This document shows, piece after piece, positions 4,637 to 48,768 of a stretch of DNA of 64,000 bases. The position numbers and the translations under genes are program-made. Within the stretch, counting starts at the first letter, position 1, and each line of letters opens with the position of its first letter. The notes below the pieces were generated by a model. That model was not told where the DNA came from and did not search any database. It saw only the letters and a list, made by a program, of their open reading frames with translations. The stretch is from Capitulum mitella (taxonomy: Eukaryota; Arthropoda; Thecostraca; Pollicipedomorpha; Pollicipedidae), in the NCBI GenBank assembly GCA_030062745.1, contig CP099844.1:5175481-5239480 (forward strand), written 5' to 3'.

Positions 4637-5932
4637 TTTCTGTTCTATATCATCTGAAACATTGTTATTTGTTCTGGTTCTCTGATACCTATCACGTAAA
4701 AATCATTTCAGTTTGTTAAACAATGGACCAATGACACCAGTCGTTTTCAGTTTTTCCAATAATATACGAATACTTACGGTGTCAAACGCCTTTTCAGGTC
4801 AGGGTATATTGCTGGTGTGATTTGCTTTTCAATGCGCGATCTAGTAATTTCATCAACTACGGGCGAAATAGGCATGTAGATGGAGTGTTACTTCCTACAG
4901 GAATGAATCCAAACTGAAGAGCTGAAAGAATCTGATTTTCTTCAATGTAAAGAGAAAGATACCTATACGCCATCTTTTCTTAGATTTTTGAGAAGACATG
5001 CAGTAACGCAATAGGCCAGCAATTGGTACGTCGATTTTTATCTACGAATCCGAAAATAGGCTTAATGTTAGCAATTTTTAATAATGAGGGGAACACGGAT
5101 GACTAAAGGCAAATATTAAGGCAAAATGTTACATGCTGCAAAGTGGTTTCGTAAGTTAATTATGGCCTCCATTTCTCCAAACGTGGTAGATAAGCCGTTT
5201 CGAAAGGGCTCATAACCTGGCTTGGTAAGATAGTCAGTTGGGTTTTTGTGTGAATGAGGAATTTTACTTTCAAGTTTCTGATCGAGAGAAGAAAAAAATA
5301 AATCCCTTCGCAACATCTTCTCCGCCATGGAATTGAAGGCAGTTTGCCCTGTTTCCCGTCTTTTTATTCATTAATTTATTAATGATTTGGCAAGTTTTCC
5401 TCATATCATTCTTATTCTCTTCCATTTTGCTCTTGAAGTAAAACCTCTTTGCATCTCAGATGCAAATACAGATGATGCTTGTTAATATATTTCTACGTTT
5501 TTTGTAATTGTTTTCATTAATGACGTTCTTTTGCCTTAAGTACTACTTGTAGTTTATTTTTCTCATCCATTGGGCACAATATCGCTGGGCTTACCCATGG
5601 TTTTATTGGACATTTTCTTCTAGAAAGTTTCTTTTCCTTACAAAATAATTAATTCCATCTTGATACGCGCATTCATAGCATGCTCCATTTGGGTCCTCGA
5701 TGCGTCAAATATGTCCCAGTCCGTCATTTAAGTATTTATTTAAGTTAATCATCGTAATGAAGTCAAACATTTTTTTCTTTCAACAGATATCATAAACACT
5801 CAGAGTAAGTAATGCGAATATCGGAAGATGATCAGATAAATCAGATATTATGATTCCCGATGACCGGTGACTTGAGCTGTCGTTAACAAAAATATTATCA
5901 TTTCAAGATGATCTTTGATTTATAACACGGGT

Positions 5933-10059: not shown

Positions 10060-10495
10060 TGTCCCAGGTCGGTCCCGCGTGACACCTGTCCTTTCCTCGG
10101 ATCGGTCCAGCGTGAATTGTCTCTCGGTCTCAGACCGGTCCGGCGTGAGTCGTGTCTCTGTCTCAGTCTGGTCCAGCGCGAATCGTCTCTTTGTCTCAGA
10201 CCGGTCCAGCGTTCGTCGTCTCTTTGTCCCAGACCGGTCCAACATTCGTCGTCTCTTTGTCTCAGACCGGTCCAGCGTGAATCGTCTCTTTGCGTCAGAC
10301 CGGTCCAGTGTTCGTCGTCTCTTTGTCTCAGACCGGTCCGGCGTGATTCGTGTCTCTGTCCCAGTTTGGTCCAGCGTTCGTCGTCTCTTTGTCTCAGACC
10401 GGTCCAGCGTGAATCGTTTCTTTGTCTCAGACCGGTCCAGCGTTCGTCGTGTCTTTGTCTCAGACCGGTCCAGCGTGAGTCGTTCCTCTCTGGCT
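10060..10495. repeat. 33-bp minisatellite
   Basis: About 13 tandem copies of a 33-base unit close to GGTCCAGCGTTCGTCGTCTC plus TTTGTCTCAGACC. Because 33 is a multiple of three, reading frames stay open through the array (two on plus, one on minus) and produce 11-residue repeats such as RSSVRRLFVSD. The three overlapping frames, absence of splice context and tandem origin argue that it is not coding. Confidence 0.85.
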
Positions 10496-10598
10496 GAGAA
10501 TCGCTACGTTCCGGCGTAACGTTCGGAGCCGACGCTGATTGGTCGGCTGTCGAAAGCTCACTCCCGTCCTCCGTTGCTGATTGGTCGGCTGTCGACAG

Positions 10599-10765
10599 TG
10601 CACTCCTGTCCTCCGTTCTTCCCGTTCGCCTTCGACACCACCGAATCCCGGGGCCTGGAGGTGCTCTACGATGAGAGGGACTGGCGGGATGTCGGCGGCA
10701 CCGTCACTCTCACCTGCTCCAACACCAGCTACATTCTGCTCTGGAACCAGGAGCAGGCGGACGCT
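10599..10765 (+). CDS. Exon: CCP domain 1, first half
   Basis: Acceptor after CAG at 10596-10598, donor GTGAGT at 10766. Enters at phase 1 and ends at phase 0. It carries Cys1 (SCPP) and Cys2 (VTLTC) of a CCP domain and ends in WNQEQADA. The second half is 5.3 kb downstream at 16091. This is the first exon of the gene that can be recognised. Confidence 0.75.
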
Positions 10766-13700: not shown

Positions 13701-16700
13701 CGAGGTCGTGAGCTTGTGACTCTTAGGGCCTCGGGCTTACCGGTAGCCCAGGTTCTCTCGGCAACTAATGAAGTGATGATGAGTCATTCGACAAGGTGCA
13801 AAAGGCCGGCTGATGCTGAATTACATTTTACGAGAGATAAATTTTGGGCTACGGAAAAAGATTCAGTTGCAGACGTTTGCAGCAGGCGTTGACAAAACAC
13901 GCCACTACAGCTCGGGAAAGGGAATCGAGGAGAGGGATGATAGAATTTTCTCATCAGGGAAAGGCATAAGGGTACAAATTAAGGGGGGAGGGTAATTAAG
14001 CACCAGTTTAGAATTAGTCAAGTCCGTCACACAACGATGTGCATTCGCCGCGGAGCATTTTAATTCTGTTACTACATATTAACAATCAGGACACAGCATC
14101 TGTCAGCTTATGCTGAGACAAAAGACTAATAAATGCATTGACTCAATTTTGGGCGTATCGTATGACCCAATTTTGGATTTAGCCGGACGGCGCAGGGTTA
14201 TATGGACGGCCGAGGGAGGGAGGGCACTTGACGGAAGGGCTCCCAAGCATGACGTCACAAAGTCATCCTCCAAAACACGTCCCTCCTTCTCACGCCAGTC
14301 TTTCGTCTCACACCGCGTTACTCACTGTATTTATGCACGACCAGAATTGGCCTCCTCGGCAGTCTACACATAGCTTCCGTAAGCGGTAGACGGGTCGGTG
14401 GGTTTTTCGGCGAAAGCGAGTTGCACGGCATGCAACGAACACCGCAGCCTGTGCACGCGCAGCCGCCCACGCCGAGCGCCGGCCAACGTGCAGCACGTAT
14501 TAAGCCGCACCATCAGATCCCGTCGTTTTGAAAAAAGACCCCGACAGCACCGCAGCCGTGATACAATACCATCTCAGCTTTTCATAACAACACGCGGTCC
14601 TGTCTGACCGATCGCAAAATGGACGCAGCGGATAAGGGGCGCCCTGAACACTGTCATCCAAGGCAGATGCCGTGGTAGCATTGGCGGCAGAACGAGAGGC
14701 TCAGGTGACAGGCCGATGTCTGGACAATCAGTAAGATCTCTCTAGGGGTGAGCACTGTATAAGGGCGAAGAGACGAATTGTAAGAGACGGGTTCCATTTG
14801 TCTGGCGAAAATACGGCAACACAGTGTGCCTTACTGTCGCACATCGTCTTGCGTATATCTTTTTTCACTGGACACCAATTTTCGGATAAACCAATAAATG
14901 CGGAAATGGGGAGAGCATGATGGACAGCAGGGTGGAGTAGGCCGTGGCTTATTTGCCCCACGCTTGATACGAAGCTGGACAACGCGCTTGTCCGAAACCA
15001 TAGAAAGTGCGCTTGTTTTTCATCATCTCTCAAAAAGGATCGAAGGAATTTTGGATAGTATTTTGCTTCAATTCCATTATTACCAGCAACACTATTTCTC
15101 GCAAATATTTTCAAACTTTCATACACAATACTGCTCTAAAATTATTAAAATGTTGGATCATTATACCTTTTTCGTCAGAAAAGACATACTCCAAGAATTT
15201 CCTGAGCCGAGCACGGTTCAGGAAATTCTTGGAGCTAGAGCTGGAAAATTCCTTTTGAAAATGCGCTAACAAAATTCAAGGGGAACAACGCGTTTAGTAC
15301 CGGTAACCACAAAGGCACCGCGGGAAAATATATATTCTTTGAGCCCTGGAGACCAGTTTTTGGATAAATCAACCAATGTAGAAATGGGGAGGGCATGGTG
15401 ATGGACAGTAAAATGAAGTATACCTTAGCTCTCTGCTCCACGATTGATACAGAGCTTGACAACAAGTTTAAGTCCTGGGCCATTGAGAAAGTGCTGGTTT
15501 CTAATCAACTCTCGAAAGGGATTTTCGGCAGAACTTGAGTGCATAAATTAACAGTGCGTTGTTCCAAATGCATTATTTCAACTGTCATTTGAAAATGTAC
15601 AAGATATCCTGCAATTATTTTCAAAGTTGCCGCCACAACGTTGCATTGGAATAGTTAAAATGTCCTCGGATCCTCGGAATTTGTCGCCAGGCAAGACGGT
15701 GATCTCAGGGCGACCACCAGAGCTAAGAAATTCCTGTCCAAAAAGTACCAATAAAATACCGAACTGGACAAAGTGCTTAGTACAGGATGATTATTTCTAC
15801 TTTCAAGAACACAATGGCCCGACCCGCGGCCTAAGGCTCAAAACTGCAATGGCCGACAAGAAATCACAGCACGTTTAGGGCAGCCAGTGTGGTCAGGCAC
15901 CGTGACAGTTCCGCAGCACTGCGAATTCAAGCTATCATCAACATAACGCATGCTGCAATACCGTTACGTCTACAAGTTGCACTCGATGCAAGAAGACTGT
16001 CAGTGGAAACCTCGGAACCCGTGAGGGTGCGTGTGAACCGCCGGTCTGCCAGTCCAGCGCGACCAGTGACGTGACACGGCCGTTTTGCAGCTGAGTTCCG
16101 GCTCTGCGGCGGACGGGCTCGCCTCCCACCAGACGTTCACCTGTCAGAAGACTGGCGAAGTGTTCGGCTGGTCCCCCGGCGGCCAGATGGTGCCGTCCGG
16201 TCCCGTCTGTCTGCGTGAGTCGCCGGCCGCGTCGCCGGACAGCTGCTGGCCAAGGAAGGCTGTGGCCCACAATGTGGCAAAGGACAGCTGGGGGCAGCCG
16301 GCGGTGCTCTCACTGGTGGCTTGAGACAGCCGGGGACGGATGGCCTTGTTCCTCCCTGTGACAGATGGTGATGACGGTTAGCAGTGCTTCTCATTGCGGT
16401 AGAGGGCAGCTGGAGACAAATAGCTGCGTTCCACTTGGTGACAGGATTACTCTGAGAACAGGCGGTGGTATTCCTCGTTTCCAAAGCAGTCTTCAGCAGG
16501 TTCAGAGCGTACATTTTATAGACCCATATTTCTGTACCCATGTTTGAATGTCAGTCTTTGGCTTCTAGATATTCAGTTTTTATGGTGCCATTTCAGAGCC
16601 GTGCAAAACCGGATACGCTAGCAATCTCAATATATCGCACCCTAAATGCCTGAAGTACTATGAGACGGAAGAGGCCGTGGACCTACGCAAAGCCACGGAA

Positions 16701-19700
16701 TTCTGCAGGGAGCAGGACGCTTCTCTGGCCAACCCCTTCAGCGGCAACGACACCCTGCAGACGTTCATCAGGCTGGCTGCTAACAAGACTGTCATCACTG
16801 GCGTCGACCTGCGGTGAGTTTCTGCCGATGGGATGGGGGAAGGGAGGGGGATACGGAGCTCACCATGATGACGATAATATGCTGAATCGTCTAGGTGATG
16901 AAGTAACGTTAATGACACAAATCCGTAAAAGCCATTGATGAATTTTGGGTGCAATACATACATACCTAACCAAACCAGCAAAGGAAGGCTTGGATTGATT
17001 CACGGCCTGATTCTGTCTGCACACGGAAACGAATGGCGCCATGTTGAATCGTCGCGTACAACCAAGCCAATAAATTCGCTGTGTTTTGGTGACCATTATG
17101 GTTGGCGTCATTCGGTATTAAACAGAACTTGGCCAACCCACAAATCAACTCAGAATTCACCAAGACCCGTCGTGGACGCAGCCGATGCGGACCCGAGGGA
17201 CCGACAAAATGACCGAATGACACCACCCAAACTTCGCTGACATATCCCAACGGACTGCACCGAAAGTGCAGTCAGCTGCTTGTGTTCACCTGACCGTTCC
17301 ATCGTCATCCAAAATACCCGATAGTTTTGCATGTTTACTTTTACTTTGAAGTGTCAGGGTTGTAAATATTGCCGATTGTGTTTGCTGGTAAGATTTAATG
17401 TTTTCTTCAACACAGCTTTGCTTGTTTCCTTCGTACAGGATATGTTTAACCCGCCCGTCAGATGTCTCTGCTTCATGGCATGAGTCTTGCGGCATGAAAA
17501 GAGAGATGCGGACTTGAATATTACAGCGATTCATGGGCAAACCGTCCTCGCCCACCGAGAAGAGGTCACGGAGAATTTCCTCGTCTGGCGAGAGATCTGA
17601 GAAATGGCGTTGGACGCCATGTCGGGTATTTTTGGTATGGTATTAATTGGTATGGTATTAACCCTATTCCCGGCAGGGGGGCTGAATCCGCTCCCCTTCG
17701 GGTTTTTTGCTTGCCAATTCCAGGCTTTTTAACGCAGCTTTACGAAACTTGGTGACTTTTCCTAGCTATTTTTTTGTAAGCGCTGTGACAAAATTTCACA
17801 ATTCTACTTTGCTCAGGAACGGAGCCAGGCAACGTTTTTGGGAGGCACCTCATGCCATTTTTGGCCATGTTGAGGGTAAAATGAAAATGTCTGTCAAAAA
17901 CAGAGTTTCAAAGATAGAACTTAAAACTTTATATGGATGTATAGCTAAATAGTTGGGCAATGTGCAGACGTAATTTTGTTTATCTGAGGCCATTTTACAA
18001 GGTCAGGTCAAGGTCAAAAGTCAAAATTTGTTTTTTCGCAATAATTTCGGCGCGATTTTTTCAAATACCAAACCCGGAATATATATTACGTAGAACAGTG
18101 CGTTTTACTTGTGTACGAAGTTTCAGTTTGATATCAGGTCAGGTCACGGAGCTATGACCTAAAATGTCAGTGCGCGTACCCTATATCGCAATAGCCATAA
18201 AATAAAATTTTTGAAATAGAGTGAATTCAAATAATTGAAAACGTTTACAGATAGTCTTAAATGCACACGAGATCATTCCAAATGACCCCAAGGTCACTGG
18301 AGGTCATTTAAGGTCAAAGGTCACAAGTTGATCTGAGAAACGTGTGACCATGACAGTTCCCCCTTTTTCATGTCCCTGGCACCGCCTATGCTAACATTAT
18401 ACAAACATTGTAATGCGATTCGTACTTCTTTAGTATACCATGACTAGCAGAAGCCAAAAATGGGTGTTTGCCTCTTTTGTTCATTCAATTGTTAGAAAAC
18501 TAATCCTCCTATTTTTGAAACCCTGTGAACGCCCATGAACTTTCTCAAAATTTCAAATTTGTGTGCCCATGGTAAAAGCCCTATCCATAATCTCTCGATT
18601 CATGCCGGTTTCATTGAAATCGGTCGATAAACAACGGGGTTATAAGATGTCCAAAAGTACCCTCCATTTTGACATTTTTGCCCCCCTGTATCCACACATT
18701 TCGAAATTTTGCAAGTTTCTTTTCAATAAAAGTGTAGTTCACATCACGGCAAATCGATTTCCGTTTGTTGCGATGAAATCGGACGAGTAGTTCTCGAGAT
18801 CTCACGGGGGCCGAATCCGCCCCCCTGCCGGGAATCGACCATACCGTCTAGCCCTCTGGGAATAGGGTTAATCAGTGGAAACTTTTGAAACCATCCTGAA
18901 TCAAAAGTTACTCATAGTACAATCAGACTTGTCCACAGTATTTCCGAAACGGAAATTGCAACGGGTATCAAGCCACGGTGCCAAATATAATCATTGCCTT
19001 GCAGTTTATAACAAGTGTTTTAATGTTGAGATCAGTGGCGATTCTTCCATTGAGACACATGAGACACTTCCTCACCTGTAATGCTGGGTTTCACCAATAT
19101 TTTTTGCGTTTGATTATTCTTTTAAAAGTTTCCTACCAACAGACAAATTACAATCCTTAATGAAGAAAATTAAAGGACATTCCATTGGCGATCAGCACTA
19201 TTCCTACTTCGAAGGCCATTGGGAAAACTCTTAATAAGGCAGCCTCACATGGCTGCGATATCAATCTGGCGGTGCGCTTTTTGATGGCGATTTTGGCGCG
19301 TCAGACAAATTGGTTTTTGAATGTCATTTCATTGCATGAATTGCGCGTTGGTGAAAGAGGATCTACTCCAGCATAAACAGGCTCCTGCAAATGGCTCATA
19401 TCAAGGACTGATCCTAAAAGGTGTTGCAATTCGAACAAATGTATGCAAATGTTTGACACATTTGACGCATGTTCCCGAATTAGTGCTGAAATGCTAAGCT
19501 ATGTTATACCCTAAATGAGCCTGCCGTATGATTTTGTTTTTCTGATCCCTTGATAATAATAGGCATTAACCCGCGCCTGATTATCAGTCGGCGCCGGTCA
19601 CGTTTGACTGGGGCGGCGGTTGACCGCCTCCCTCTAACCCACGAACTGCTGGTCGCGCGATAAAAATAAGCACACCGTTGGAAAGCTTGTGACACAGAGA

Positions 19701-22700
19701 GCCCGAAACTGATCTGATTTTTAGTTTTGGATAACATGTAAGCCATTTACGCCCTTTACATGTTTTCTCACAGTCGACTGCATGAAACCGAGAAGCGGCC
19801 TGGATCTCAAGAGCTGTGATTAATGAGGCCTAGGTAAAGGCACCAATGGATAGAAGTCCATTGATATCCACCAATGGATAAAAGTCCGCAGATGCCGATA
19901 CACGCCTATTTTTTTTATTTGCTTCATAAATAACCCAAACGTTGAATTAAAGATACGGCGATTTTTGCGCCCACTGCCGGCGGGCGCCGTAGCCGAACGC
20001 CGTATAAAATTGACGGAAATTAATTTCAGCGTTCCTTTATTTTTGCGACATTTCCATGTGATATTTCTTTGTCCTAGTGGTTCTTGTAATGGTTTCTCAT
20101 GCTTAAATTTCGGAGAAATTCGATAGTTATCAATCTACACAACTGGCGGGGCTTTATTTCCAGGATTTCTTTATTTCCAAAATATTCAGTTTTTCCGAAA
20201 CTTTTCGAAATTTGCTACTACTCACTGTGCCAGCCAGTTCTGCCTTTTTCAACCCGTTCTGAGTAACTGATCGCCGATCTTGACGGCAGAGCATTTTGTG
20301 TCATAACGGTTATTCGTGACCTGACCTCAGGTCAATGGCTGGAAGACATTGATACTTTGTCCATTGACGGTAACTGGATGTCTGCATCACCTCATACAGA
20401 AATCTTATGAAAAATTCCGTTAAATTCCGAAAAAAACGACGTCATGTCCTAAAAATCGGGTCAACCTTGGGACAATGACCGGCAAAATTCCGAAAAATCT
20501 AAGATAGCAGATTTCTTGCATTCATCAAGGTCTGTAATCCCTAAAAGTTTTACTGTGAAATCCTGTTCCCGAAAAAGTTGCAGGGCGTTAAGGTGAGGCA
20601 CCTGACTTTGTCGGCTTTGACGAACAAACGACAAAGAAGATCATAAAATGTTGATATGCTCTAACCTTCAACAAGACATGGATTGGCGAGTATATACATA
20701 TGTGTTTATATATATGTATATATATATATGTGTGCGTGTGTGTGTGTGTATGTTCTCTCTGAGTGTGTGTGTGTGTGTGTTTGTTCTGTGTGTGTGTGTA
20801 CATATCAGTCATTTTGAATGCAAGGGCTAACGCGCTTTTATAAACTTCTCTCTTGCTTGTTCGATGTTTCGCATTAGGTTTCGTTCTGCCTTGGTAGAAA
20901 AAATATTAAGTCTCCAGTATTCGTACATAAAAAGGTAGAGGCTTTCATGGGAGAAAACCATGAACGCATCCACAGAAGGCATTAGAAAAGGAGGCATGTA
21001 GCGTCGCACGCGGGTAATGCAAAAAGGATATTTCCTTCAGGACCAAGATTGTCATACAATGTACCTTGCACCAGCCTGGTACTGGCACATATTATATTGG
21101 CATGACATTGGCAAATGGTATTGGCTCGTGGTATGGTATGGTAGGGACATGTTGACTACTCGTGACCTCACACGACATCATCATGGATGAAACTTACGTC
21201 ATTGCAGTCCCGCGAAAGAGTGACATTTTGCGCCATGAAACTAGCGGTGTTTGCCGGTTAAAGATTTTCTTTTGCAAACGAGCATTTACAGGCTTTTGAT
21301 GGAGCCTTATGATGGTTGCGAAATCTTATGCTTTATGTCAGGTTAACTTAAAATAACGGCAATTCGACCTCGTAGTTTCGCATGACCTAGCTTGCCCTGT
21401 GCTACTGTTTTCCTTAGATAAACGTTTGATGCATAAAGCACACGCATTGAGGCCTTAGGTTATCTGTACTCTTCGATTTGCACGAAAAAGGTGGCATTCC
21501 CCAAATCGGTCGAATAGTGAGTTTTGCATGACCTGTTACCCGCGGAATAATCTTGAGGTTTACAGATGTAACATACCTGGGCTGGCATTATCCAGGGCAA
21601 TAAATTATCATTTGGATCAGCTAAGCTGGTCGATTGGTTGCAGAGCTATTGTGTCCGTGTGTGCGTGTGTAGGGGTCTGACGCCCCATCCAGCAACTGGA
21701 AAGTGACAACATTCCCCAGTTACTGCTGGGTTCACGATAAAGTGCACACTGTCGATATAGCTGCGTCCAGGCACTGCCGACACCGGTTTGTTCAATAGCC
21801 GAGCTGCAGCTGAACCGTCAGCTCAACCCACAGGGGCCAAACCATTATCAGCCCGGACTTCGTCAACTCGGATCTGATGCAGCCGGCCGACGCCAGCCTC
21901 GGCATGAAGAACTGCATCTTCTTCGAAAAGGACCATTTCTTGCCTCAGGCCTGCTTTCCTCTTACATCTTCCGGCACCACAGGCGTCGTCTGCCAGACGC
22001 CCGGTAAGGGCCGACAGCTCCGCTGCCGGTACAGGACGTGCGGGATATAGGAGGGTTTTCGTCTGCCCAGGCAGGACCGATATGACCACCGCTGTCCTTA
22101 CATTCCACGTGCGTGTATTTCAAATCGTGCAGCTGGAGTACTGACCTGGTGTGTGAAGCGCATACGAAGACCTTCGCCCTGTCGATAGCAATTGGAGTCC
22201 ACCGTATCACCTTGTCTGATCGAGTCTTTTAGAACACCCGAAAAGCAAATGTGGATAAAAAAACAACCGCCACCTATAGATAAAGACCAGATGAAGGCCA
22301 CCGTCAGGCTAGTACGTTTACTGATAAGGGTCTATCCGAAGCTGTCTGCCCTTAGCTACGCACCAATGAGTTGGTTTCCTACGGATCAATTTATGATATA
22401 AAACAATAATAGGAAGAAAAGTAAAAAGTCCTACCAACAGTTGGAACATCATCTTTGAATGCCTGCAATGATATTGGGACTTGGCAAATGCGCTGACATG
22501 GGCCTAGGGGAGGAACTCAAGGAACACTAACTCTGGGAACATTTGCCAGGTACTCACCCACATCATGGTTGCTTGCGCCAGAATGAGCCGTGTCCAAAAC
22601 ATGAGTATTTCACATATTCACATTCACATCATTTTAAAATATGATTTCATATTTGAATTATATAAATATTTTATCTATATATAATATATATATAATCGCT

Positions 22701-37700: not shown

Positions 37701-40700
37701 CTCTTAAGGAAATCCTGATCACGCCTCTGTTGCAGTCTCCAGGTTCAGTTGTTGACTTTGATAAGCTGCATTTCCATTCAAAACATTTCCTTCTTTCCTC
37801 AAAATTAATGATGAATGTTCCGCGCCAAACAACAAACGACATATGACATACAACAACGCCCCCAGCGACTTACGCGACGGACGCAACCCGCAACGATGGA
37901 GTGATAGAATGCCCGCGTGAGTCGACGTTTCCATGGCGATCGAAGCCAGTCGACGGCTAACGTCTTATTGGCAGCATTTGGCAGCAATTGGCTTCCCTAT
38001 GACCCGCTACGGTAATGGCCCCCCTTTATCCGGTTAGGCCGATATCTGTCCGGTTAACGCTTCATCGAAACTGCGTCTTCTGATTGATCTTGTAAATATG
38101 CTGTTTTTTGGTTGCGTGATCCTTCGAATTGTCTCTCCAATAGCGTTACGTTCATTGAACTAAGCGCTCACTGCATCCACTGTGACTGCTTAGCCAGGCG
38201 TACGCCAGTGGCATACGGAGTGCATGCGGGTTACGGAGCGCCCGGCGAACAGCTCACCTCACTGCAGCGTAGCCAGGCGCTGACTGCGCGCGCATGCCCC
38301 GTCCCCAGTGTGCGCCAACGAGCCGCAGGTCTCCTCCAACACCAGCCTGGCGGTCACGAGACCGGAGAGCGTCCACCTGGGCAGCCTCATCATCTACAAC
38401 TGCATGGAGGGCAAGGCCTTCAGTCACGGCCACAACATGACCAGCGCCATCTGCATGCCAGACGGCTGGTTTACCTGCGAGGAGCAGCTGGACTGTCTTC
38501 GTGAGTGGCGGCGTTTGTGGCGCAGACCACTCACGCTGGTCAGCTTGTCGGCGTCCGCTGGCCACAGACGTGGCCAGCGGACGCCGACAGCTCTCCGGCG
38601 GCGGCACTGCCGTTGACCGGGTGTTTGTGCTGGGCATCCGGAGTCTGCGCCGGGTGTGTAGTGACGTCAAGCCAAGGGATGACAATGGTGACAACTGATG
38701 CGAATGTCATGCGGCCGAATGTTTAGTTTAGAGAACGAGGTGTACCTGTGATTGCGAAAACTTGTAGCGATGATATGCAAGCATGATGGGGACAGGGCGG
38801 TTCGTCATTCATCCACCAGCCTATCAGACCATTCCACCACGTTCGCCTGGAATGTGGTGGAATCTTATCACGCCAGCTTATCCCGCCATGTCCACGGTCC
38901 CGGGCGCTGGCAGCGCGTGAGCTCTGTAAGCTTTAGCCGGAGCACCCAGGTAATGGACAGTTTACTTCGTTATGTAGGCAGATTCTTGAGCACACTCCTT
39001 TTCTTGCATTAAACGTATGCGTGAACGTCGTCTGCTTCTAGTGTGGACGGCTGTGTGTTTTGGGCGTTTGGGCCGCGGATTCTGTCGCGGTCATGGCCAG
39101 TTGTGAACGCGACTTCGCCGCCGCGCAGTCTGCGTGGCGGAGCCGCCAGCCCCGCTGGACAACATGGAGCGAGCTTGGAACGTCACCGAACAGACGGCCA
39201 ACTACACCTGCATGGGTGCACTGACCTTGGACGGGGCCAACGACACCCAGGAGCTGGCCTGCGGCGACGTCGGCTGGCCGGCGGACCTGCTGCCCTGCGA
39301 CAGTGAGTGGCCGAAACAGCGTCAGCGGGGAGCAGCGTGGAACGCTGTTGAGTTTACAGGACTCGCTGCCTCATTTTCAGACAAAGGGACTCGCAGAAGT
39401 CTGGACGTTTGGAGGGAGGGACGCGAAACAGTGAATCCCTTGCTGACGCGAAGCAGTAATCCCGTGTTGTCTCAACGTTCCGCCGAGTTCGTACTATCAA
39501 TGTGGAACAGCAGACACTCTGGTGACTCGAGGGGAAGGGTGCGCTCTTGAAGTCTAGACTCTCCAAGCTGTACTCCAGACTTACCTCAGAGCTGCATCAG
39601 GCGTGGGAACGAACTAGTCTTTTTCTTTCTGTAACCTAACCCCGCCATCCGCAGATGTTCAGGTTAATAAGTGCAGCCCGGCTGGCCGTCGAGCGCCGGC
39701 TGGCCTTCTCTCAGTTCCCACAGTGTCCATGGTCAAATGTCCTGCCCCGTCCACCGTCCCGCGTCCACAGAGCGTTCACGGCCAAACGTCCTGGCCCGTC
39801 CACCGCCCTGCGTCCACAGAGCGTTCACGACCAAACGTCCTGACCCACCCACCGCCACAGAGAGTTCACAGCCACGTGTTCTGACCCACCCACCGCCTTG
39901 CGTGCACATTGTTCACAGCCTCATGCTCCGACCCGTCCGCTGCCCTGCGTCCGCATAATGTCCACAGCCACATGCTGTAATTCGCCCACCGCCCTGCGTC
40001 CACAGAGTGTCCACAGCCAAACGATACCATGCCGGGCTTCAACGTCAGCTGGGACGGTATCCAGCTGGGCTCCACCCTGCTGCTCACCTGCCCCGAGGGC
40101 AAGGTTCACGTCAACCAGACGGCCGAGCAGACCTTCGACTGCTCCCTGCACGGCTGGGGCAGGAGTCAGCCGCTGCCCTGCGACAGTACGTGTTCCACGC
40201 CGGCAGACCCGGCACAGCAAAGGGATGGGAGGGGGGCGTGATGCTGCCAAGGTCACGCCAAACTAGGGATGTTTTCTGGTGACTGAAAGGACCTCAGTGT
40301 GAAGTTAACAGAAGTCCAGTCGGGCGAACTTTGATAGCAGCGCCGCTTCGACAAAACCTTGCCTGTCATGCGCGCTGAACTCAGCGTTCCACCGCTCAAC
40401 ACAGTCATCCGACAGCAGAAAGGGGCGTAACGCAGCAACACGCGTGTTCGACATTATACTGAGCAGTGGCCGGGGTTTCCCGCCTTCAGGGTGCGCGCCG
40501 CCTCTGCCGCGCCCTGCCGCGCACGCCACGCCGTCAGACGGCTCCGCCGTCGTGCAGGACGGTCAGGAGACGGTGTTCAACTGTTCCGCCGGTCTGACCA
40601 CGGCCGACGGGCAGACGACGTTCACCGAGACCTGCCAGGCTGACGGCTGGACGGTCAGCGGGAACTGTTCCAGTGCGTGCCTGCCGCGCCCGCCGACGCT

Positions 40701-42759
40701 GCTGGCGTGCCGCAGACGGGTGTTGCACTAGTGATCGTAACGTCCTTCACGGGCTCGTGCTCTCCTAAAGATCGCACAGTGCACGAGTCTCATGTATCTC
40801 ATGCAGAGCGGAATGGTGCAATGGGATGTCGTTCGCAGATAGGCTGTTCTCGCTGAACGAAAAACGTACTTTGGAAATCGCCTTAAAGGAAATCCCCTGA
40901 CAAGACTTCTCCTCATAGCATTTTAGCACCGTACCATCCATCGCACAGTCGTGACCATCCACGATCGTGTCCCTGGTGGTTGTGGAAAGTTGGCGTCGGT
41001 GCCGCTGTTGGTGTCACTGGAACTGTCCCGTGGTAAGGCGCGCGCGTGATCACGCCGCAGGTTGTGAGGGGGAGCCGCCGGCCATTGGAAGAGCCCTGTC
41101 ACGAGACTGGAACGGCGGCCGTGAGCTGGGAGCCGTGGCCGTCTACAACTGCACCAACAAGCAGACGCCGAACGTCACGTGCGAAGCCAGCGGCTGGAAC
41201 GCCGAGGAGGACCCGTGCGACGCGCTGCCACGTGAGGAGTAGTTCTTCTGTCGGCCAAGGCAGGCTGTTGAGCTACCTCACGTCACGAGACCCTGTCTTG
41301 ATTACCCACAGCTCATAAGCAATAAGCATTACTAGCCGTCGTTTATGTTTTGACCACGGTTAAACACTTCTGACGCTACCCTACGGGAATTACGACCGCC
41401 GGGTGTTGAGAGCTGAAGCCTAAAATCGGTAAACCAGCACTTTGGCGCGGTTAAACGCACTGATGACGCCAGGAGCGATCGACAGCACATTTTGCCGTGC
41501 TCCCCGGACGCGAATACGCTATTGCTTCATGTCGGCATGCCATACCCGGAGAACATTTCGGCACCACCGTGTGACTCCTGCCGCCCGTATGACGTCAGAA
41601 CACTGTCCGAGCCCACCGGAGGCCACTCAGAACGGCACTCAGATCTCAGACACCGGCGAGGACACAGGAGCGGTCAGGAACGTCACCTACACCTGCCAGA
41701 ACGGCGTCACCACCCGGCTGTACTGCGTCAACGGCAGCTGGATGCCAGCCAACCTGCCGCCCTGCGCCTTCCCGCAGAGTAAGGAGCCTCGTACGCCGCG
41801 CAGGCTCCGAGTCTTGCCCGCGCACCTCTTCGACTGCGCGCACCTGAACCGCGCGCACCGCGGGCTCGCGCACTTTCCGAACCCTGTTTCAGGCCGCGAG
41901 GGGAAATCGTGAGAACTTGCGGCGCTGCGCGGTTGCGTTGCTGACTCGTAAGCGTGTCGCAGACAGGGACGGTTATCAGCGAATACCGGCTGTTGGCAGA
42001 CGCGTGTCCGGAGCCGCCGGACGCTCCAGACGGCGCCACCGTCGCGGACGCGGGTCCGTTTGTCGGCGAACAGCGGAACGTCACCTACACGTGCTCCAAC
42101 GGCGTCATCACCGTGCTGTACTGCCAGAACGCCAGCTGGGCGCCCGGTATCAGCATCTGTGAGGCAGGTACGGACGGGAGCAGAACACAGAGTGTGTGTG
42201 GCGTCCGCCCTTTGCTTCCGTACAGCCATAACGCCTGCTGGTGAGTCGTGCACCGTGTGTTTTACGTCGCCGACGGCCGCAGGCATATCGGAGTCGCCGC
42301 CGCCGCCGCCGCCGGGGGTCACCGCCGTCGACTCTGGCCCTGTGACGTCGCCGGACGGCCAGCAGATCCGCGTGATCACCTACGACTGCGGCGACGGCGT
42401 GACCGACAGGCTGACCTGGCGGGACGGCGGCTGGCGGCCGGAGAACGCCGTGCCCTGCGGCGACGACGCCAGTGAGTCGCCGGTCGGACGGTACTGCAGT
42501 GCCGGCCTGTGGCGGGCAGTCTAACCGCTGCGTGTTCAGGCTCCAGCGCCAGAATCATAAGACATGGCATAGGGCGAAATGGGCAGGGTCCTCAGTTTTT
42601 TTTATGCGCTGTTGCAGTCATCTGAGAGTGTTACGCGTCATTTTGCCGGTGCTTTCGTTAAATAGGTGATGAGAGAGAAAGTCATTCACGCATCGTTCCA
42701 CAGTAAGTGGAAAGCGCTTAAAAACATTTTCGCCGATTTATATATCGGTATAGAAGTAG

Positions 42760-42807
<48 letters not shown>

Positions 42808-45800: not shown

Positions 45801-48458
45801 TCTGGTCTCTTTTTCGACGCATCAGTCAGGCTTAACCGTACGCACCGTAGCTGGTAGCCGACTAGTCCTGTGTCTCGTCAGACGTCGGCCGGTAGTCTGG
45901 CCGCACCATGTCTCGCAGAACCGTGGGCTGTAGCGCATGACCTTCTCAAGGTCATGGGCGTCTGAACCTGGCTGTGCCAAGTGCCGGCCATGTTTGGTGA
46001 ACCACAGGACGCAGGACTGGCTCGGATGTTCGGCGACCTTTCGACGTTGGTTCGTAAACTGGTCCGTGCGTTTGATTTAGTTTTTATTTTGGTGTCGGAC
46101 GGAAGACCCCAAGCGGCGGGGTTGAAGAGTTCGGCGAGGCGCGCTGGTGATGGTGAGCCAATGATCTGTGGCCCGTTGGTCCGAGTGCCAGTCTGACCTG
46201 TGAGTTCATTGACGGAGTCAGGTGTGAGTCGGGCAGGGAGTCAATTGTTTCCACTCCTCGCCAACCCCGGCTGTTCTCACAGAAAGACGGCGAGATGTTA
46301 AATGACGGCGAGCTTTTTGGCGGCGCATCAAAGGCGCTCACCATCGCCGCAGGCATATCGGAGGCGCCGCCGCCGCCGCCGCCGGGGGTCACCGCCATCG
46401 ACTCTGGCCCTATGACGTCGCCGGACGGCCAGCAGATCCGCGTGATCACGTACGACTGCGGCGACGGCGTGACCGACACGCTGACCTGGCGGGACGGCGG
46501 CTGGCGGCCGGAGAACGCCGTACCCTGCGGCGACGACGCCAGTGAGTCGCCGGTCGGACGGTGTTCCTGCCGGCGCTAGTGGGGCGCCCCGCCGGGCCTG
46601 TATCCGTCAGACCGCTGGTAACCAGCGACAAACGCCTGCTAGCTGGCTGATGATTGGCTGCCGGGATACAGTTAACCAAAGTTTCGACTTCAGCGCATCT
46701 GTTTTTGTAATCGGTCAGGTGAAGGTCATACTTGCTGCGCGCGTGGGCCTGAAGCACCATGGTCTTCGCTGGAAGGGGACGATGGATGTGCTTGACGCCG
46801 GAACTTCCGCGGAAGTTAGCATTATGCCTACGTTTCAGCGTTCCAACAGGCGCTGTGCGAACAGAAGGGCTGAAAATCTTCACTCTCACTCACACCCGAG
46901 GCGAGCGCAGACGTAACCTTGTCTTCAGCCTGCTGTGGCAAGGGCTCGTGCTGGCGTCCGTGTGCTGGGCTGTCCGTCCCGGCCGACGTTGTCTGACCAC
47001 GCGACGTCCGGCCAGACGCCTGCCCGGCCAGGAACGAGACAGCCGAGGCGACCCTGGTCGACACCGGGCCGTACTCAGCGGGCGTGCGCACGGCCACCTA
47101 CAACTGCAGCAGCGGCGTCGTCAGCGAGTTCCGCTGCGACAACGCCACCTGGATGCCGGATGACCTGGCTCCCTGCGAAGGTATAGGCGGCGCTACCGTC
47201 GGCGGCCGGGCTCAGAGCGTGCTGTTCTGCTGCCGGGCTCGGTTCAGCCCCCATGTCTGCTCGCCCTTCGTCTGGCAATACGAGCATTTGGCGTACCCGC
47301 TTTACGTGCTGGTCCAAAGTATCACTCACTGGCAGGTTACCGTTTTGTCCGGGCGCCAACCAGCTAGTAAGTTGGATGCGTTACAGTCCATCAGTCGATG
47401 GCAAGAATATGTGACAATTGCGTTTCATGTTCTCAGCAGCAGTGTTCTGTGAAATAGTTTCATGGTGCTGCCATCGATCAGTGTGTGTTTGGCTCTTTGA
47501 TGTACCCTGATAAAATCTTTGCCATGCGATTTGTTTGCCCCCAAGCTTTCTCAGCGCTACCCCATCATACTGTCACCTTGTTCTTTCTAGCCCCTTCCAG
47601 ATCATTCCAACATTCCTGGAATGAGTTTGAACGATGGGATGAGTATGAATGTTTATGTGAAGGTGTGGATGCGAATGAACACTGAACACGCACTTTACCG
47701 TGTATATCCACTGGGCATGTCGTGACTTGTTAGGAAGATGACGACCATTGACCACTGATATGATTGCATTGTAGAGTCATGCTGTCGTTGGTTTCAGTAT
47801 GTGACAATATGTGTGTCATAGTGCGGAGCACAGGTGAGAATTGTAATGAAACGGAATTAATCCATTCGGCACTAGATTTTTGTTACGTTTTTCTTACTCA
47901 CTTTCGCGATGGTTTGTAGGTTGTGTGTTGTAATTGAGAACACTTCGAGAGTTATCAACGCTCGCTGTTGAGAACATTGTCGTACTATAACATATACACA
48001 TAAGTTATATGTTGTATTCTTGCTATTCTTGTCTTTTGTGATGGTTTCTAGTTTGTGATTTCCTTTTGGGAATATTTCGAAAGTTACCACCATCTACTGT
48101 TGAGAACAATGCCGTTTGCCGTTTCTTGTATATGGAACCTGTAACGTAACCCCTAGCGCTGCCTGGAAATAATAGCGTCAGTTGTGTTGGTGTGCTCTCT
48201 TTATCCGAGGATCCTACACTTGTGTGGAAGTGTACTGTTTCTTTTTTATCACAGCTGCACTTGCAATGCATTCTGGTGCCTAGCTTATGGTGTCTGACAA
48301 CGTTGTACACCCTCAGGAAAACGGTAAGCTTAAGCGTGCAGCTATATGTTCGTTACACCGTTGCCTATTTTCTTTACTGCATTCCCCGAGTCATTTCAGA
48401 TGATTCTTCAATGACGCTTCACCAAAACTCGAGACTCTCTCCGTACTTCACGCGTTGA
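10599..48458 (+). CDS. Lectin-like/CCP multidomain secreted protein gene (5'-partial)
   Basis: Twenty exons from 10599 to 47180 join with matching intron phases into one open frame of about 1,213 codons. The order is one CCP domain, two CTLDs and fourteen further CCP domains. A terminal exon at 48400-48458 is proposed. Cysteine spacing, N-glycosylation sequons (NVT, NYT, NDT, NAS, NAT) and phase 1-1 boundaries are typical of an extracellular mosaic protein. No signal peptide or first exon was found, so the gene probably starts left of the window or in an unrecognised exon. No transmembrane segment was found either, although the region 47.2-48.4 kb is poorly resolved. Lectin-plus-sushi proteins such as selectins and insect Furrowed act in adhesion or recognition. 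A similar role here is inference. It could also be two genes, but the continuous phase makes one more likely. Confidence 0.75.
10766..13184. other. Intron 1, first part
   Basis: AT-rich intronic DNA. Short frames at 11257-11646 overlap on both strands and resemble no known protein. No exon with CCP or lectin spacing was found. Confidence 0.5.
13185..13660. repeat. GC-rich duplicated repeat block
   Basis: Two related segments, about 13185-13325 and 13512-13660, share GTCCGGA, then a GGCTGTAAGACCG block and GCCGGCATGTCGAAA. Each contains internal roughly 40-base sub-repeats ending in ATGTCGAAA. The 297-codon minus-strand frame over 12713-13606 arises in this GC-rich repeat and shows no recognised domain. 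Confidence 0.65.
13661..14873. other. Intron 1, middle part
   Basis: No exon recognised. Mixed GC content and short overlapping frames on both strands. Confidence 0.45.
14874..15666. repeat. Diverged direct duplication with a hairpin
   Basis: The segment 14874-15156 is repeated in diverged form at 15348-15666: GGATAAA, AAATGGGGAG, GATGGACAG, the CGATTGATAC-like word and TATTTTCAAA occur in the same order about 474-510 bases apart. Between the copies lies a perfect 17-bp hairpin at 15189-15205/15218-15234. No coding potential is evident. Confidence 0.65.
15189..15234. other. Perfect 17-bp hairpin, 12-nt loop
   Basis: Arms at 15189-15205 and 15218-15234 pair without mismatch (CTCCAAGAATTTCCTGA and its complement). 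It lies in an intron just after the first copy of a diverged duplication. Function unknown. Confidence 0.85.
15667..16090. other. Intron 1, last part
   Basis: No exon recognised. Ends at the acceptor TTTTGCAG used by the exon at 16091. Confidence 0.5.
16091..16214 (+). CDS. Exon: CCP domain 1, second half
   Basis: Acceptor TTTTGCAG, donor GTGAGT at 16215. Phase 0 in, phase 1 out, matching the exon at 10599. Encodes TFTCQKTGEVFGW (Cys3) and PSGPVC (Cys4), completing the first CCP domain. Confidence 0.85.
16597..16813 (+). CDS. Exon: C-type-lectin-like domain 1, N-terminal half
   Basis: Acceptor CCATTTCAG, donor GTGAGT at 16814. Enters at phase 1 and ends at phase 2. Encodes CKTGYASN, then KCLKYYETEEAVDLRKATEF, then CREQDASLANP, the usual CTLD pattern of an N-terminal Cys pair, an aromatic strand and A..FC...ASLA. 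It ends at ITGVDLR, where a WIGL-like strand would lie. Confidence 0.85.
16814..17657. other. Intron inside CTLD 1, first part
   Basis: No exon recognised. Overlapping short frames on both strands around 16860-17250 resemble no known family. Confidence 0.5.
17658..18871 (-). mobile_element. piggyBac-like non-autonomous element, copy 2
   Basis: Bounded by TTAA at 17658-17661 and 18868-18871, with CCCTATTCCC inverted ends. Its full length is the reverse complement of copy 1 at 1229-2440, including the segment with TGACCTAAAATGTCAGTG. No transposase frame. It lies in the intron that splits CTLD 1. Confidence 0.85.
18872..21833. other. Intron inside CTLD 1, second part
   Basis: No exon recognised. 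Contains a compound TA and GT microsatellite at about 20690-20805, which explains the His-Thr and Val-Cys runs in translated frames there, and a GC-rich patch at 19560-19650. Confidence 0.5.
20690..20805. repeat. Compound TA/GT microsatellite
   Basis: Alternating TATA and GTGT runs with interruptions. Purely simple sequence. Confidence 0.9.
21834..22003 (+). CDS. Exon: C-type-lectin-like domain 1, C-terminal half
   Basis: Acceptor CAACCCACAG, donor GTAAGG at 22004. Phase 2 in, phase 1 out. Encodes RGQTIISPDFVNSDL, then LGMKNCIFFEKDHF, QACFPL and GVVCQTP, the last three cysteines of a CTLD. The mannose/galactose-type EPN or QPD and WND calcium motifs are absent, so calcium-dependent sugar binding is unlikely by the known rules. 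Confidence 0.85.
22004..23099. other. Intron between CTLD 1 and CTLD 2, first part
   Basis: No exon recognised. AT-rich low-complexity sequence at 22640-22815 with TA and TATG runs. Confidence 0.5.
23100..23575. repeat. 30-bp minisatellite
   Basis: About 16 diverged tandem copies of a 30-base unit near CCGTGTCAGTAGGGAGTGCT plus ACTCTCCGGA. Copies differ at many positions and a few have indels. A related shorter run recurs at about 25385-25490. It is intronic. Confidence 0.85.
23576..25575. other. Intron between CTLD 1 and CTLD 2, remainder
   Basis: No exon recognised. AT-rich DNA, with a short relic of the 30-bp repeat near 25385-25490. Confidence 0.5.
25576..25753 (+). CDS. Exon: C-type-lectin-like domain 2, N-terminal half
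   Basis: Acceptor CTGTCCACAG. The donor at 25754 is GTGCGT, slightly weak. Phase 1 in, phase 2 out, as in CTLD 1. Encodes TCPEGYAHHTNWGCIKKF, then RCSTHGGSLPP, and ends VTNVNRR. The split falls at the same structural point as in CTLD 1, pointing to an internal duplication of a two-exon module. Confidence 0.8.
25754..26156. other. Intron inside CTLD 2
   Basis: No exon. Ends in an imperfect short palindrome at about 26115-26146, directly before the long inverted repeat. Confidence 0.5.
26157..26469. repeat. 313-bp near-perfect palindrome
   Basis: Arms 26157-26289 and 26337-26469 are 133 bases each and differ at only three positions. The 47-base centre contains further GTGTCATCAT motifs. It sits in the intron splitting CTLD 2, about 120 bases before the next exon. 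It may be a snap-back MITE or a recent inverted duplication. No flanking target duplication could be fixed. Confidence 0.95.
26588..26853 (+). CDS. Exon: C-type-lectin-like domain 2, C-terminal half
   Basis: Acceptor GGCGGCAG, donor GTAAGT at 26854. Phase 2 in, phase 1 out. Encodes GDGVTWRDADGAEV, EDCLLMVPG, IRCEDS and EVICLYP. Between the last two cysteines is an unusual Gly/Ser/Leu-rich insertion (SGLLSSVLSGLGNAVG and GGGSSGSS) that is not normal for a CTLD and probably forms an exposed loop. Confidence 0.85.
26854..30415. other. Long intron before the CCP series
   Basis: No exon recognised over 3.5 kb. AT-rich, with a poly-T run at about 28990-29008. The many short overlapping frames match nothing familiar. 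Confidence 0.5.
30416..30601 (+). CDS. Exon: CCP domain 2
   Basis: Acceptor TTGAGCAG, donor GTGAGA at 30602. Phase 1-1, 186 nt. Starts DCYSAPVTP and has SSCPAGLKF, DVFCRGALGNW and GDCV, the four CCP cysteines and the tryptophan before Cys4. The Cys1-Cys2 stretch is longer and acidic/Ser-rich, making it the least typical of the four-cysteine domains. Confidence 0.8.
30602..31107. other. Intron between CCP 2 and CCP 3
   Basis: No exon recognised. GC-rich towards the 3' end. Confidence 0.5.
31108..31290 (+). CDS. Exon: CCP domain 3
   Basis: Acceptor CGTCAG, donor GTGAGC at 31291, phase 1-1, 183 nt. Four cysteines at VCGDPPEPADG, VYACREG, ELACQDS and PAPCT. The sequon NQT precedes Cys2. Confidence 0.85.
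31291..33445. other. Intron between CCP 3 and CCP 4
   Basis: No clear exon. Contains AGGTCA-rich repeat DNA at 31590-31770 and 32640-32900 and a perfect 14-bp hairpin at 32534-32569. Confidence 0.5.
32534..32569. other. Perfect 14-bp hairpin, 8-nt loop
   Basis: CCGGAGTTTATACC at 32534-32547 pairs exactly with 32556-32569. Intronic, function unknown. Confidence 0.85.
33446..33487 (+). CDS. Possible 42-nt micro-exon
   Basis: A strong acceptor (pyrimidine tract then CACTCAG) and a strong donor (GTGAGT at 33488) enclose 42 nt that are phase 1-1 and open, encoding about 14 residues (GCRRLQGSLGSVY). The following intron would be only 60 nt. If used, it adds a short linker before CCP 4. Skipping it keeps frame, so it could be a cassette exon or chance. 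Confidence 0.35.
33548..33736 (+). CDS. Exon: CCP domain 4
   Basis: Acceptor GTCGGCAG, donor GTCAGT at 33737, phase 1-1, 189 nt. Cysteines at ECHGQPD, TVHCGANVT, TVSCGEEGW and LLPCD. Two sequons (NVT, NQT) are present. Confidence 0.85.
33737..38308. other. Long intron between CCP 4 and CCP 5
   Basis: No exon recognised in 4.6 kb. A 78-codon plus frame at 35303-35539 overlaps a 95-codon minus frame and matches no known family. Repeat DNA at 36960-37110 (AATCATTTACA, GACGCCCCTGA) recurs at 44280-44400. Confidence 0.5.
38309..38500 (+). CDS. Exon: CCP domain 5 (five cysteines)
   Basis: Acceptor GTCCCCAG, donor GTGAGT at 38501, phase 1-1, 192 nt. Cysteines at VCANEPQ, IIYNCMEG, SAICMPDGW, FTCEEQ and LDCL, so one more than the CCP norm. 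The odd cysteine could be free or pair with another chain or domain. Carries NTS and NMT sequons. Confidence 0.85.
38501..39128. other. Intron between CCP 5 and CCP 6
   Basis: Holds the 20-bp perfect hairpin at 38546-38589, otherwise nothing recognised. Confidence 0.5.
38546..38589. other. Perfect 20-bp GC-rich hairpin, 4-nt loop
   Basis: Arms 38546-38565 and 38570-38589 are exact complements around an AGAC loop, 46 bases after the donor of the CCP 5 exon. In RNA this would be a very stable stem close to the 5' splice site. Any effect on splicing is inference. Confidence 0.9.
39129..39302 (+). CDS. Exon: CCP domain 6
   Basis: Acceptor CCGCGCAG, donor GTGAGT at 39303, phase 1-1, 174 nt. Cysteines at VCVAEPP, NYTCMGA, ELACGDVGW and LLPCD. 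Three sequons (NVT, NYT, NDT). Confidence 0.85.
39303..39720. other. Intron between CCP 6 and CCP 7, first part
   Basis: No exon recognised. Leads into the minisatellite that ends at the next exon. Confidence 0.5.
39721..40022. repeat. Minisatellite of about 41-49 bp overlapping a splice acceptor
   Basis: About six tandem units of the form CCGCCCTGCGTCCACAG, then AGNGTTCACAGCCAAACG, then CTGACCC. The unit carries its own acceptor-like CCACAG, seen at 39770, 39819 and 39860. The last unit supplies the actual acceptor (ending 40005) and the first bases of the CCP 7 exon. Confidence 0.8.
40006..40185 (+). CDS. Exon: CCP domain 7
   Basis: Acceptor GCGTCCACAG ending 40005, donor GTACGT at 40186, phase 1-1, 180 nt. 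Cysteines at KCPQPNDT, LLLTCPEG, FDCSLHGW and LPCD. Its first codons, including Cys1, lie inside the last unit of the upstream minisatellite. Sequons NDT, NVS and NQT. Confidence 0.85.
40186..40489. other. Intron between CCP 7 and CCP 8
   Basis: A 304-nt intron, nothing recognised. Confidence 0.6.
40490..40672 (+). CDS. Exon: CCP domain 8
   Basis: Acceptor CGCCTTCAG, donor GTGCGT at 40673, phase 1-1, 183 nt. Cysteines at RCAPPLP, VFNCSAGLT, ETCQADGW and GNCS. Confidence 0.85.
40673..41060. other. Intron between CCP 8 and CCP 9
   Basis: A 388-nt intron, nothing recognised. Confidence 0.6.
41061..41231 (+). CDS. Exon: CCP domain 9
   Basis: Acceptor CGCCGCAG, donor GTGAGG at 41232, phase 1-1, 171 nt. 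Cysteines at GCEGEPP, VYNCTNK, NVTCEASGW and DPCDA. One of the shortest modules. Sequon NCT overlaps Cys2. Confidence 0.85.
41232..41598. other. Intron between CCP 9 and CCP 10
   Basis: A 367-nt intron, nothing recognised. Confidence 0.6.
41599..41778 (+). CDS. Exon: CCP domain 10
   Basis: Acceptor GACGTCAG, donor GTAAGG at 41779, phase 1-1, 180 nt. Cysteines at HCPSPPEATQNGT, TYTCQNGV, LYCVNGSW and PPCAF. From this exon on, domains share the wording T.D.G and N.TY.C.NGV..LYC, a distinct CCP subfamily. Confidence 0.85.
42000..42167 (+). CDS. Exon: CCP domain 11
   Basis: Acceptor TGTTGGCAG, donor GTACGG at 42168, phase 1-1, 168 nt. Starts NACPEPPDAPDGATV, with TYTCSNGVITVLYCQNASW and SICEA. 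Strongly similar to the exon at 42858, of the same length. Confidence 0.85.
42283..42471 (+). CDS. Exon: CCP domain 12, two-cysteine form
   Basis: Acceptor CGGCCGCAG, donor GTGAGT at 42472, phase 1-1, 189 nt. Reads GISESPPPPPPGV, then VITYDCGDGV, then RLTWRDGGWRP, then AVPCGDDA. The positions of Cys1 and Cys3 are Ile/Ser and Trp. Since CCP disulfides link 1-3 and 2-4, exactly one bond is lost and the other kept. The start also has a run of six prolines. Near-identical twin at 46353. Confidence 0.85.
42763..42816. repeat. Compound TA/GT microsatellite
   Basis: Simple dinucleotide runs 42 bases before the CCP 13 exon. Confidence 0.95.
42858..43025 (+). CDS. Exon: CCP domain 13
   Basis: Acceptor CTGTCCGCAG, donor GTGCGG at 43026, phase 1-1, 168 nt. 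Starts DACPEPPQPPDGATV, with TYSCPNDVVTVLYCQNASW and ELCQP. Paralogue of the exon at 42000. Confidence 0.85.
43026..44696. other. Intron between CCP 13 and CCP 14, first part
   Basis: No exon recognised. A (GAAT)n run at about 43633-43655, a poly-C run near 44345, and repeat DNA at 44280-44400 related to 36960-37110. Confidence 0.5.
44697..45228. mobile_element. Possible MITE with imperfect inverted ends
   Basis: The left end CAGTGGCGTAGCCAG, followed by GAAGGGTCAGAGGGGCC, is matched at the right end (about 45195-45228) by its imperfect complement, GGCCCCTCCGACCCCTTCCC followed by CTGGCTGCGC. A similar start, CAGGGGCGCAACCAAG, at about 45075 suggests a second nested element. CAGTGGCG-type ends are common for cut-and-paste DNA elements. 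No target duplication was established. Confidence 0.45.
45229..46352. other. Intron between CCP 13 and CCP 14, last part
   Basis: No exon recognised. Contains a short perfect palindrome, CATGACCTT/AAGGTCATG, at about 45937-45957. Confidence 0.5.
46353..46541 (+). CDS. Exon: CCP domain 14, two-cysteine form
   Basis: Acceptor ATCGCCGCAG, donor GTGAGT at 46542, phase 1-1, 189 nt. Identical to the exon at 42283 except six bases, four of which change a residue (S to A, V to I, V to M, R to T) and two are silent. Cys1 and Cys3 are missing in the same way. About 22 intron bases after the donor also match. Confidence 0.85.
46542..47015. other. Intron between CCP 14 and CCP 15
   Basis: A 474-nt intron, nothing recognised. 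Confidence 0.6.
47016..47180 (+). CDS. Exon: CCP domain 15
   Basis: Acceptor TCCGGCCAG, donor GTATAG at 47181, phase 1-1, 165 nt. Cysteines at DACPARNET, TYNCSSGV, EFRCDNATW and APCE. Last recognisable domain of the gene. Confidence 0.85.
47181..48399. other. Intronic or undetected-exon stretch
   Basis: One weak candidate exon: after the excellent acceptor TTGTTCTTTCTAG (ending 47590), 47591-47662 is open and phase 1-1 and encodes FQHSWNEFERWDEYECLCE, but its donor GTGTGG is poor. No transmembrane exon was found. Confidence 0.35.
48400..48458 (+). CDS. Proposed terminal exon
   Basis: A long pyrimidine-rich tract ends in TCATTTCAG at 48399. In the required phase 1 it reads DDSSMTLHQNSRLSPYFTR and stops at 48456-48458. 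AATAAA follows at 48540. This would end the protein with a short hydrophilic tail and no membrane anchor, so it would be secreted. The assignment rests on splice signal, phase and poly(A) signal only. Confidence 0.45.
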
Positions 48459-48729: not shown

Positions 48730-48768
48730 TTCCATGCTTTCACGAATTCAGTTCATGAAAGCATGGAA
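48730..48768. other. Perfect 13-bp hairpin
   Basis: TTCCATGCTTTCA at 48730-48742 pairs exactly with 48756-48768, in the spacer between the two genes. Confidence 0.8.

Follow-up and report, generated by a model that had tools for sequence, protein, structure and literature searches.

A candidate mosaic gene of Capitulum mitella that appears to combine FReD, CTLD and CCP modules

Introduction

A row of lectin-like and CCP exons on contig C6 of Capitulum mitella raises the question of whether they form one gene, where such a gene starts and ends, and what kind of protein it would encode. The DNA analysed, referred to below as the window, is a stretch of 64,000 nucleotides (C6:5175481-5239480); the genome of the same animal comprises 477 Mb in 16 contigs. 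A preliminary description had proposed a gene at 10599..48458 in which one CCP, two CTLDs and fourteen CCPs are encoded by strictly phased exons.

Results

Twenty exons in a continuous frame

Twenty exons, all on the plus strand between 10599 and 47180, join to 3657 nt, or 1218 codons, with no stop and with AG/GT at every boundary. In window positions they are:

10599..10765, plus strand, exon 1: N-terminal half of CCP-like domain 0, with C1 and C2, phase 1-0; fold assignment marginal
16091..16214, plus strand, exon 2: C-terminal half of CCP-like domain 0, with C3, Trp and C4, phase 0-1; or acceptor 16133
16597..16813, plus strand, exon 3: N-half of putative CTLD1, phase 1-2
21834..22003, plus strand, exon 4: C-half of putative CTLD1, phase 2-1; without QPD/EPN or WND
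25576..25753, plus strand, exon 5: N-half of putative CTLD2, phase 1-2; acceptor possibly 25537
26588..26853, plus strand, exon 6: C-half of putative CTLD2, phase 2-1; Gly/Ser-rich hydrophobic insertion between C3 and C4
30416..30601, plus strand, exon 7: CCP1, long type; lowest leave-one-out score of the CCPs
31090..31290, plus strand, exon 8: CCP2, long type; exceeds the Pfam Sushi cut-off
33548..33736, plus strand, exon 9: CCP3, long type
38309..38500, plus strand, exon 10: CCP4, long type; five Cys
39129..39302, plus strand, exon 11: CCP5, long type; acceptor 2.8, missed by scan
40006..40185, plus strand, exon 12: CCP6, long type; exceeds the Pfam Sushi cut-off
40490..40672, plus strand, exon 13: CCP7, long type
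41061..41231, plus strand, exon 14: CCP8, with which the short type begins; C2-C3 distance 10
41599..41778, plus strand, exon 15: CCP9, short type
42000..42167, plus strand, exon 16: CCP10, short type; CCP modules align with its AlphaFold model
42283..42471, plus strand, exon 17: CCP11 by sequence, short type lacking C1 and C3
42858..43025, plus strand, exon 18: CCP12, short type; DNA 77% identical to exon 16
46353..46541, plus strand, exon 19: CCP13, short type lacking C1 and C3; DNA 97% identical to exon 17
47016..47180, plus strand, exon 20: CCP14, short type, leaving in phase 1; final exon with support; weak acceptor (1.6)

A scan for codon usage and splice signals, trained on exons 1-20 themselves with an acceptor threshold of 3, returned 17 of the 20 exons in frame; the proposed joining of twenty exons without a frame break stands. 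The scan preferred another boundary for six of the recovered exons (2, 5, 8, 16, 17 and 19) and missed exons 1, 11 and 20, whose acceptors (2.6, 2.8 and 1.6) fall below the threshold; exon 20 surfaced in the wrong frame only. Among the 46 candidates listed, the best unassigned one between 10.6 and 47.2 kb scored 11.5, against 30.2 for the weakest recovered exon. Leave-one-out codon scores were positive for all twenty exons (9.8 to 62.2), and lower in exons 2-7 (9.8-18.7) than in exons 8-20 (42.6-62.2). Minus-strand pieces of the window reach 110, the codon score not being strand-specific in GC-rich DNA; it therefore supports the positions of the exons more than their strand, which rests on domain content. 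The alternative acceptors of exon 2 (16091 and 16133) are indistinguishable, and exon 5 may begin at 25537 or 25576.

Strict phasing holds for the CCP array, where all fourteen exons are of phase 1-1, and fails elsewhere, exon 1 being of phase 1-0 and the CTLD halves of phases 1-2 and 2-1. Phase 1-1 is the general rule for CCP exons, so phase alone is no proof of a single gene.

Several repeats accompany the exons. A 33-nt tandem repeat of 11.8 copies (10096-10483), with several frames open on both strands, ends some 115 nt short of exon 1, whose acceptor is overlapped by a second tandem repeat, of 42 nt (10534-10617). Two large introns contain a dispersed inverted repeat (37603-37729 and 45074-45199, 80% identical). 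Self-complementary foldback elements lie in introns and flank at 26157-26469, 22621-22763, 15189-15234, 38546-38589 and 48730-48768, with self-identities of 82-92%, the longest being 313 nt at 92%.

The CCP array and domain 0

The C1-C4 framework, the conserved Trp, a length of about 60 residues and recovery by profile characterise the products of exons 7-20 as CCP/Sushi modules, exons 17 and 19 being exceptional in their lack of C1 and C3. In leave-one-out profile searches all fourteen exons outranked every non-CCP ORF match, the weakest (exon 7) scoring 9.1 bits against 6.2 for the best decoy, and the array matched factor H at 1.2e-13. Pfam Sushi was found at E<=1 in three of the fourteen exons taken singly; it was not reported for the whole joined protein.

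The spacing between C2 and C3 is two-tiered: seven modules of ordinary spacing are followed by seven shortened ones, two of which (exons 17 and 19) have lost C1 and C3 together. With a profile built from the short CCPs, none of the seven long CCPs rose above the best decoy; one built from the long CCPs missed exons 17 and 19. These two exons share a 217-nt block of 97% identity, which starts 7 nt ahead of the exon and stops 21 nt past it; farther out, the flanks are 26-34% identical without gaps. By the NG86 method dS is 0.04 for exons 17/19 versus 0.45 for 16/18, and by YN00 it is 0.19 versus 1.36. The order A-B-A'-B' of exons 16-19 suggests either an old duplication of two exons in which the B exon (17/19) later underwent gene conversion, or a bare-exon copy, the conversion or copying being recent; we favour conversion, by inference.

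Exons 1 and 2 encode four Cys and a Trp in CCP order. With its two possible acceptors this domain 0 ranked third and fourth by profile among 1917 scored sequences, and its hhalign score was reached by one and two of 100 shuffles, which makes its assignment as a divergent CCP marginal. The order proposed earlier, CCP, two CTLDs and fourteen CCPs, survives in its fourteen CCPs and in two CTLDs of degenerate type, while its first CCP is marginal.

Two probable CTLDs of degenerate type

Exons 3-4 and 5-6 form parallel two-exon units, with phases 1-2 then 2-1 and the phase-2 internal intron in the same place, and their products are 25% identical. Both have the long-form Cys pattern and profile similarity to the CTLD superfamily. 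Against a profile of nine CTLDs, CTLD1 scored 28.8 and CTLD2 22.0, and none of 60 Cys-fixed shuffles per domain reached either score (maxima 20.6 and 17.8). In hmmsearch among 1000 shuffles CTLD1 ranked first and CTLD2 only tenth. Matches of the pair in the PDB were weak, four of the seven being named C-type lectin family members (E 0.44-1.4), and one of the two matches of CTLD1 alone was CD94 (E 0.95). Pfam Lectin_C was not reported for CTLD1, CTLD2 or the whole joined protein. That the two units are degenerate long-form CTLDs is supported but not proved. On direct reading of exons 3-6, the EPN/QPD and WND sugar-binding motifs are absent from both, so that the two domains, lacking these canonical Ca/sugar motifs, probably bind protein or serve as structure. 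The insertion of CTLD2 lies at 26727-26822, shortly before the strongest donor of the gene (12.7).

A predicted signal peptide and a putative shortened FReD upstream

In the 30 kb searched 5' of the window, a predicted signal-peptide exon and five putative FReD exons form a phase-consistent chain with exon 1:

C6:5156852-5156909, signal-peptide exon: ends in MWPVPAVPLLILVCAFLGA; donor 9.8, phase 1
C6:5160824-5160933, first FReD exon: phase 1-0
C6:5164662-5164731 (-10818..-10749), second FReD exon: phase 0-1; codon score -3.9
C6:5168609-5168770, third FReD exon: phase 1-1
C6:5170071-5170147 (-5409..-5333), fourth FReD exon: phase 1-0; codon score 0.2
C6:5173922-5173982, fifth FReD exon: phase 0-1

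The start of the gene seems to lie 18.6 kb 5' of the window; position 10599, given previously as its beginning, is probably internal to it. The top internal-exon candidate of the upstream 30 kb overlaps the signal-peptide exon, which is the only one of four first-exon candidates with a positive codon score. Taken singly, the best three upstream candidates reached 30.7, 28.5 and 23.8, while the opposite strand of this region gave at most 19.8. Three weaker exons from a free chain search (-1067, 7334 and 10431) were dropped.

The joined upstream part matched Pfam Fibrinogen_C with E 9.4e-4 and 19.5 bits, below the cut-off of 22, and resembles FReDs by profile over the domain. In hhalign it scored 42.4 against FReD over residues 5-94 of 155, a value that none of 60 shuffles reached (maximum 21.7). 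Angiopoietin-1/-2, angiopoietin-related 6, ficolin-1/-2 or tenascin-R made up 23 of the 24 PDB matches (E 0.02-0.6). The angiopoietin-2 alignments comprise one main colinear block and two insignificant ones, blocks outside the middle not being significant alone. Since the block GFG..NYWMG..LT spans a predicted splice junction, it was counted as evidence for the splice model. The relatives compared have about 215 residues and carry a DxDND stretch; this one has about 155 residues and lacks that stretch. Unlike in a stand-alone FReD, no stop follows the last FReD exon in the next 80 codons. A shortened FReD behind a signal peptide is a supported, if unproved, reading of the upstream sequence. 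Between the FReD exons and exon 1 lies an intron of 12.1 kb that contains tandem repeats.

The 3' end and its neighbours

Apart from an acceptor (48400) and an A[A/T]TAAA hexamer (48540), nothing marks an end at 48458, and this boundary of the earlier span is unsupported. Downstream of 47.2 kb no TM-like terminal exon over threshold was found as far as 64 kb, in agreement with the previous statement that no membrane segment is in view; weaker hydrophobic last-exon candidates lie at 49423 and 50043. The gene should end before the next recognised plus-strand gene (about 57-60 kb), 8-10 kb separating that gene from 47.2 kb.

This neighbour (57070-61060), which we take to be Dok-like, contains a PH-like exon at 57070-57261 (E 0.01, under the cut-off), a PTB domain of IRS type (about 60046-60309, E 8e-14) and possibly an earlier exon at 55467-55601. 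At the other end of the window a reverse-transcriptase fragment occupies 4370-4702 on the minus strand (Pfam RVT_1, 1.1e-8).

Relatives in the same genome

Searches for paralogues in the genome covered the FReD and exons 13-18. All five FReD matches, and eight of the nine with exons 13-18, fell at the locus itself, the ninth being a weak match on contig C3 (E 6.8e-4); neither query found a close paralogue. The genome has at least 134 Lectin_C matches, many of them on contig 16, and at least 61 Sushi matches. A locus on contig C12 (L010:4559-9368, from C12:18032559) has F5/8-type (24.5 bits, under the cut-off of 27.8), Lectin_C and three Sushi matches in Furrowed order and is likely to be the Furrowed-like gene of this genome; another on C10 (L011) has Lectin_C followed by Sushi.

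Discussion

The architecture appears to be SP-FReD-CCP?-CTLD-CTLD-CCPx14. We think it probable that these exons form one gene, of at least 26 exons and about 66 kb, for a secreted N-glycosylated mosaic (30 predicted sequons) of a signal peptide, a shortened FReD, a divergent CCP, two motif-less CTLDs and 14 CCPs; the linkage of upstream and window exons is supported, short of proof. One gene is favoured because, by the rule used, no signal-peptide-like first-exon candidate lies from -1498 to exon 1, because the five such candidates between window exons (17604, 17960, 20728, 44003 and 46026) are close to background (11 on the plus and 6 on the minus strand over the window), and because no terminal exon of the TM-like type, the one sought, was found in the gaps between window exons. 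It is quite unlikely that two or more neighbouring genes, for a FReD protein, a CTLD protein and a CCP protein, mimic continuity through their phase 1 module borders: such borders are generic, long gaps occur (including 12.1, 3.6, 4.6 and 3.3 kb) and codon scores are lower in exons 2-7, but the same scarcity of first exons and of TM-like terminal exons between the parts argues against it. With its continuous frame and its recovery by the scan, the earlier picture of one mosaic gene with adjacent CTLDs holds as far as tested.

A membrane-anchored adhesion receptor of selectin/Furrowed type, with an overlooked TM exon, a head for binding a partner cell and a CCP stalk for adhesion, is unlikely. 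The succession of CTLD and CCP array is that of Furrowed/CTL15, and the interval before the next gene contains the two weaker hydrophobic candidates; against this, no TM-like terminal exon over threshold follows 47.2 kb, a FReD takes the place of the F-type domain, there are two CTLDs where Furrowed has one, and the separate C12 locus has matches in Furrowed order.

As a secreted mosaic, the whole protein would serve in pattern recognition or adhesion in soluble form, its secretion being predicted from the signal-peptide sequence. The FReD/CTLD head would bind a ligand, perhaps a microbial surface, another animal protein or the animal's own extracellular matrix, and the CCP chain would form a long, flexible stalk that also offers partners a surface on which to dock. 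Loss of the CTLD motifs and of the acidic stretch of the FReD argues against classical calcium-dependent sugar binding.

More tentatively, and with some doubt, the gene may encode a secreted fusion of a ficolin-like FReD, paired CTLDs and a factor H-like CCP chain with a shortened second tier, in which two modules without the C1-C3 disulphide are kept alike by exon-limited gene conversion, a combination with no counterpart in described families. The open-licence literature, as far as its accessible text goes, yielded no described protein with FReD, CTLD and CCP together, and some surveys may contain one. If it is one protein, recognition heads of two lectin-like folds sit on a CCP chain in one animal gene; if real, the array offers a testable case of the paired loss of the C1-C3 disulphide from CCP modules, and one of homogenisation confined to exons within a row of symmetric exons.

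Comparison with known systems

The insect selectin-like proteins Furrowed, CTL-X2 and TcCTL15 are alike in having a CTLD and a CCP array, TcCTL15 combining one F5/8-type domain, one CRD and eleven CCPs (PMC9954269). Neither the F-type domain before the CTLD nor the single CTLD of that group is found here: a FReD replaces the former and there are two CTLD units, a CCP-like domain precedes them, WND is absent and no TM segment was found (to 64 kb). Furrowed and CG9095 are treated in PMC5712786, where the CTLD of Drosophila CG9095, a protein with CCPs, is considered unlikely to bind sugar, its canonical residues being missing; the present gene is alike in its CCPs and motif-less CTLDs, but CG9095 has an F-type domain and the present gene a FReD and two CTLDs. 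CTLD-X with CCPs in mosquitoes (PMC6070988), CTL-X in the ghost moth (PMC7379682), CTLs in bivalves (PMC10140915) and FREPs in crustaceans (PMC11602452) have also been described. Immulectins and nematode group D1 proteins share the two CTLDs without TM, and the passage describing them names no FReD or CCP array (PMC514892). At the EGF position of vertebrate selectins, between exons 6 and 7, no candidate exceeded 7.7 in the codon scan. The likeness to selectin/Furrowed was earlier called loose, and with two CTLDs, a FReD rather than an F5/8-type domain and no TM found it remains so.

Ficolins, FREPs and other FReD proteins resemble the predicted protein in their FReD head behind a signal peptide, but here no collagen or Ig region was seen, the FReD is shortened and without DxDND, and CTLD and CCP modules follow it. 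The long CCP run is closest by profile to chains of the factor H/CR1 type, from which it differs in the shortening of half its modules between C2 and C3 and in its lectin head, factor H/CR1-type chains not being known to have one. The product would be ficolin- or Furrowed-like as a soluble recognition/adhesion protein, minus the collagen region and minus a detected membrane anchor, and with the upstream FReD and signal peptide the resemblance moves from selectin towards a secreted FReD/CTLD recognition protein.
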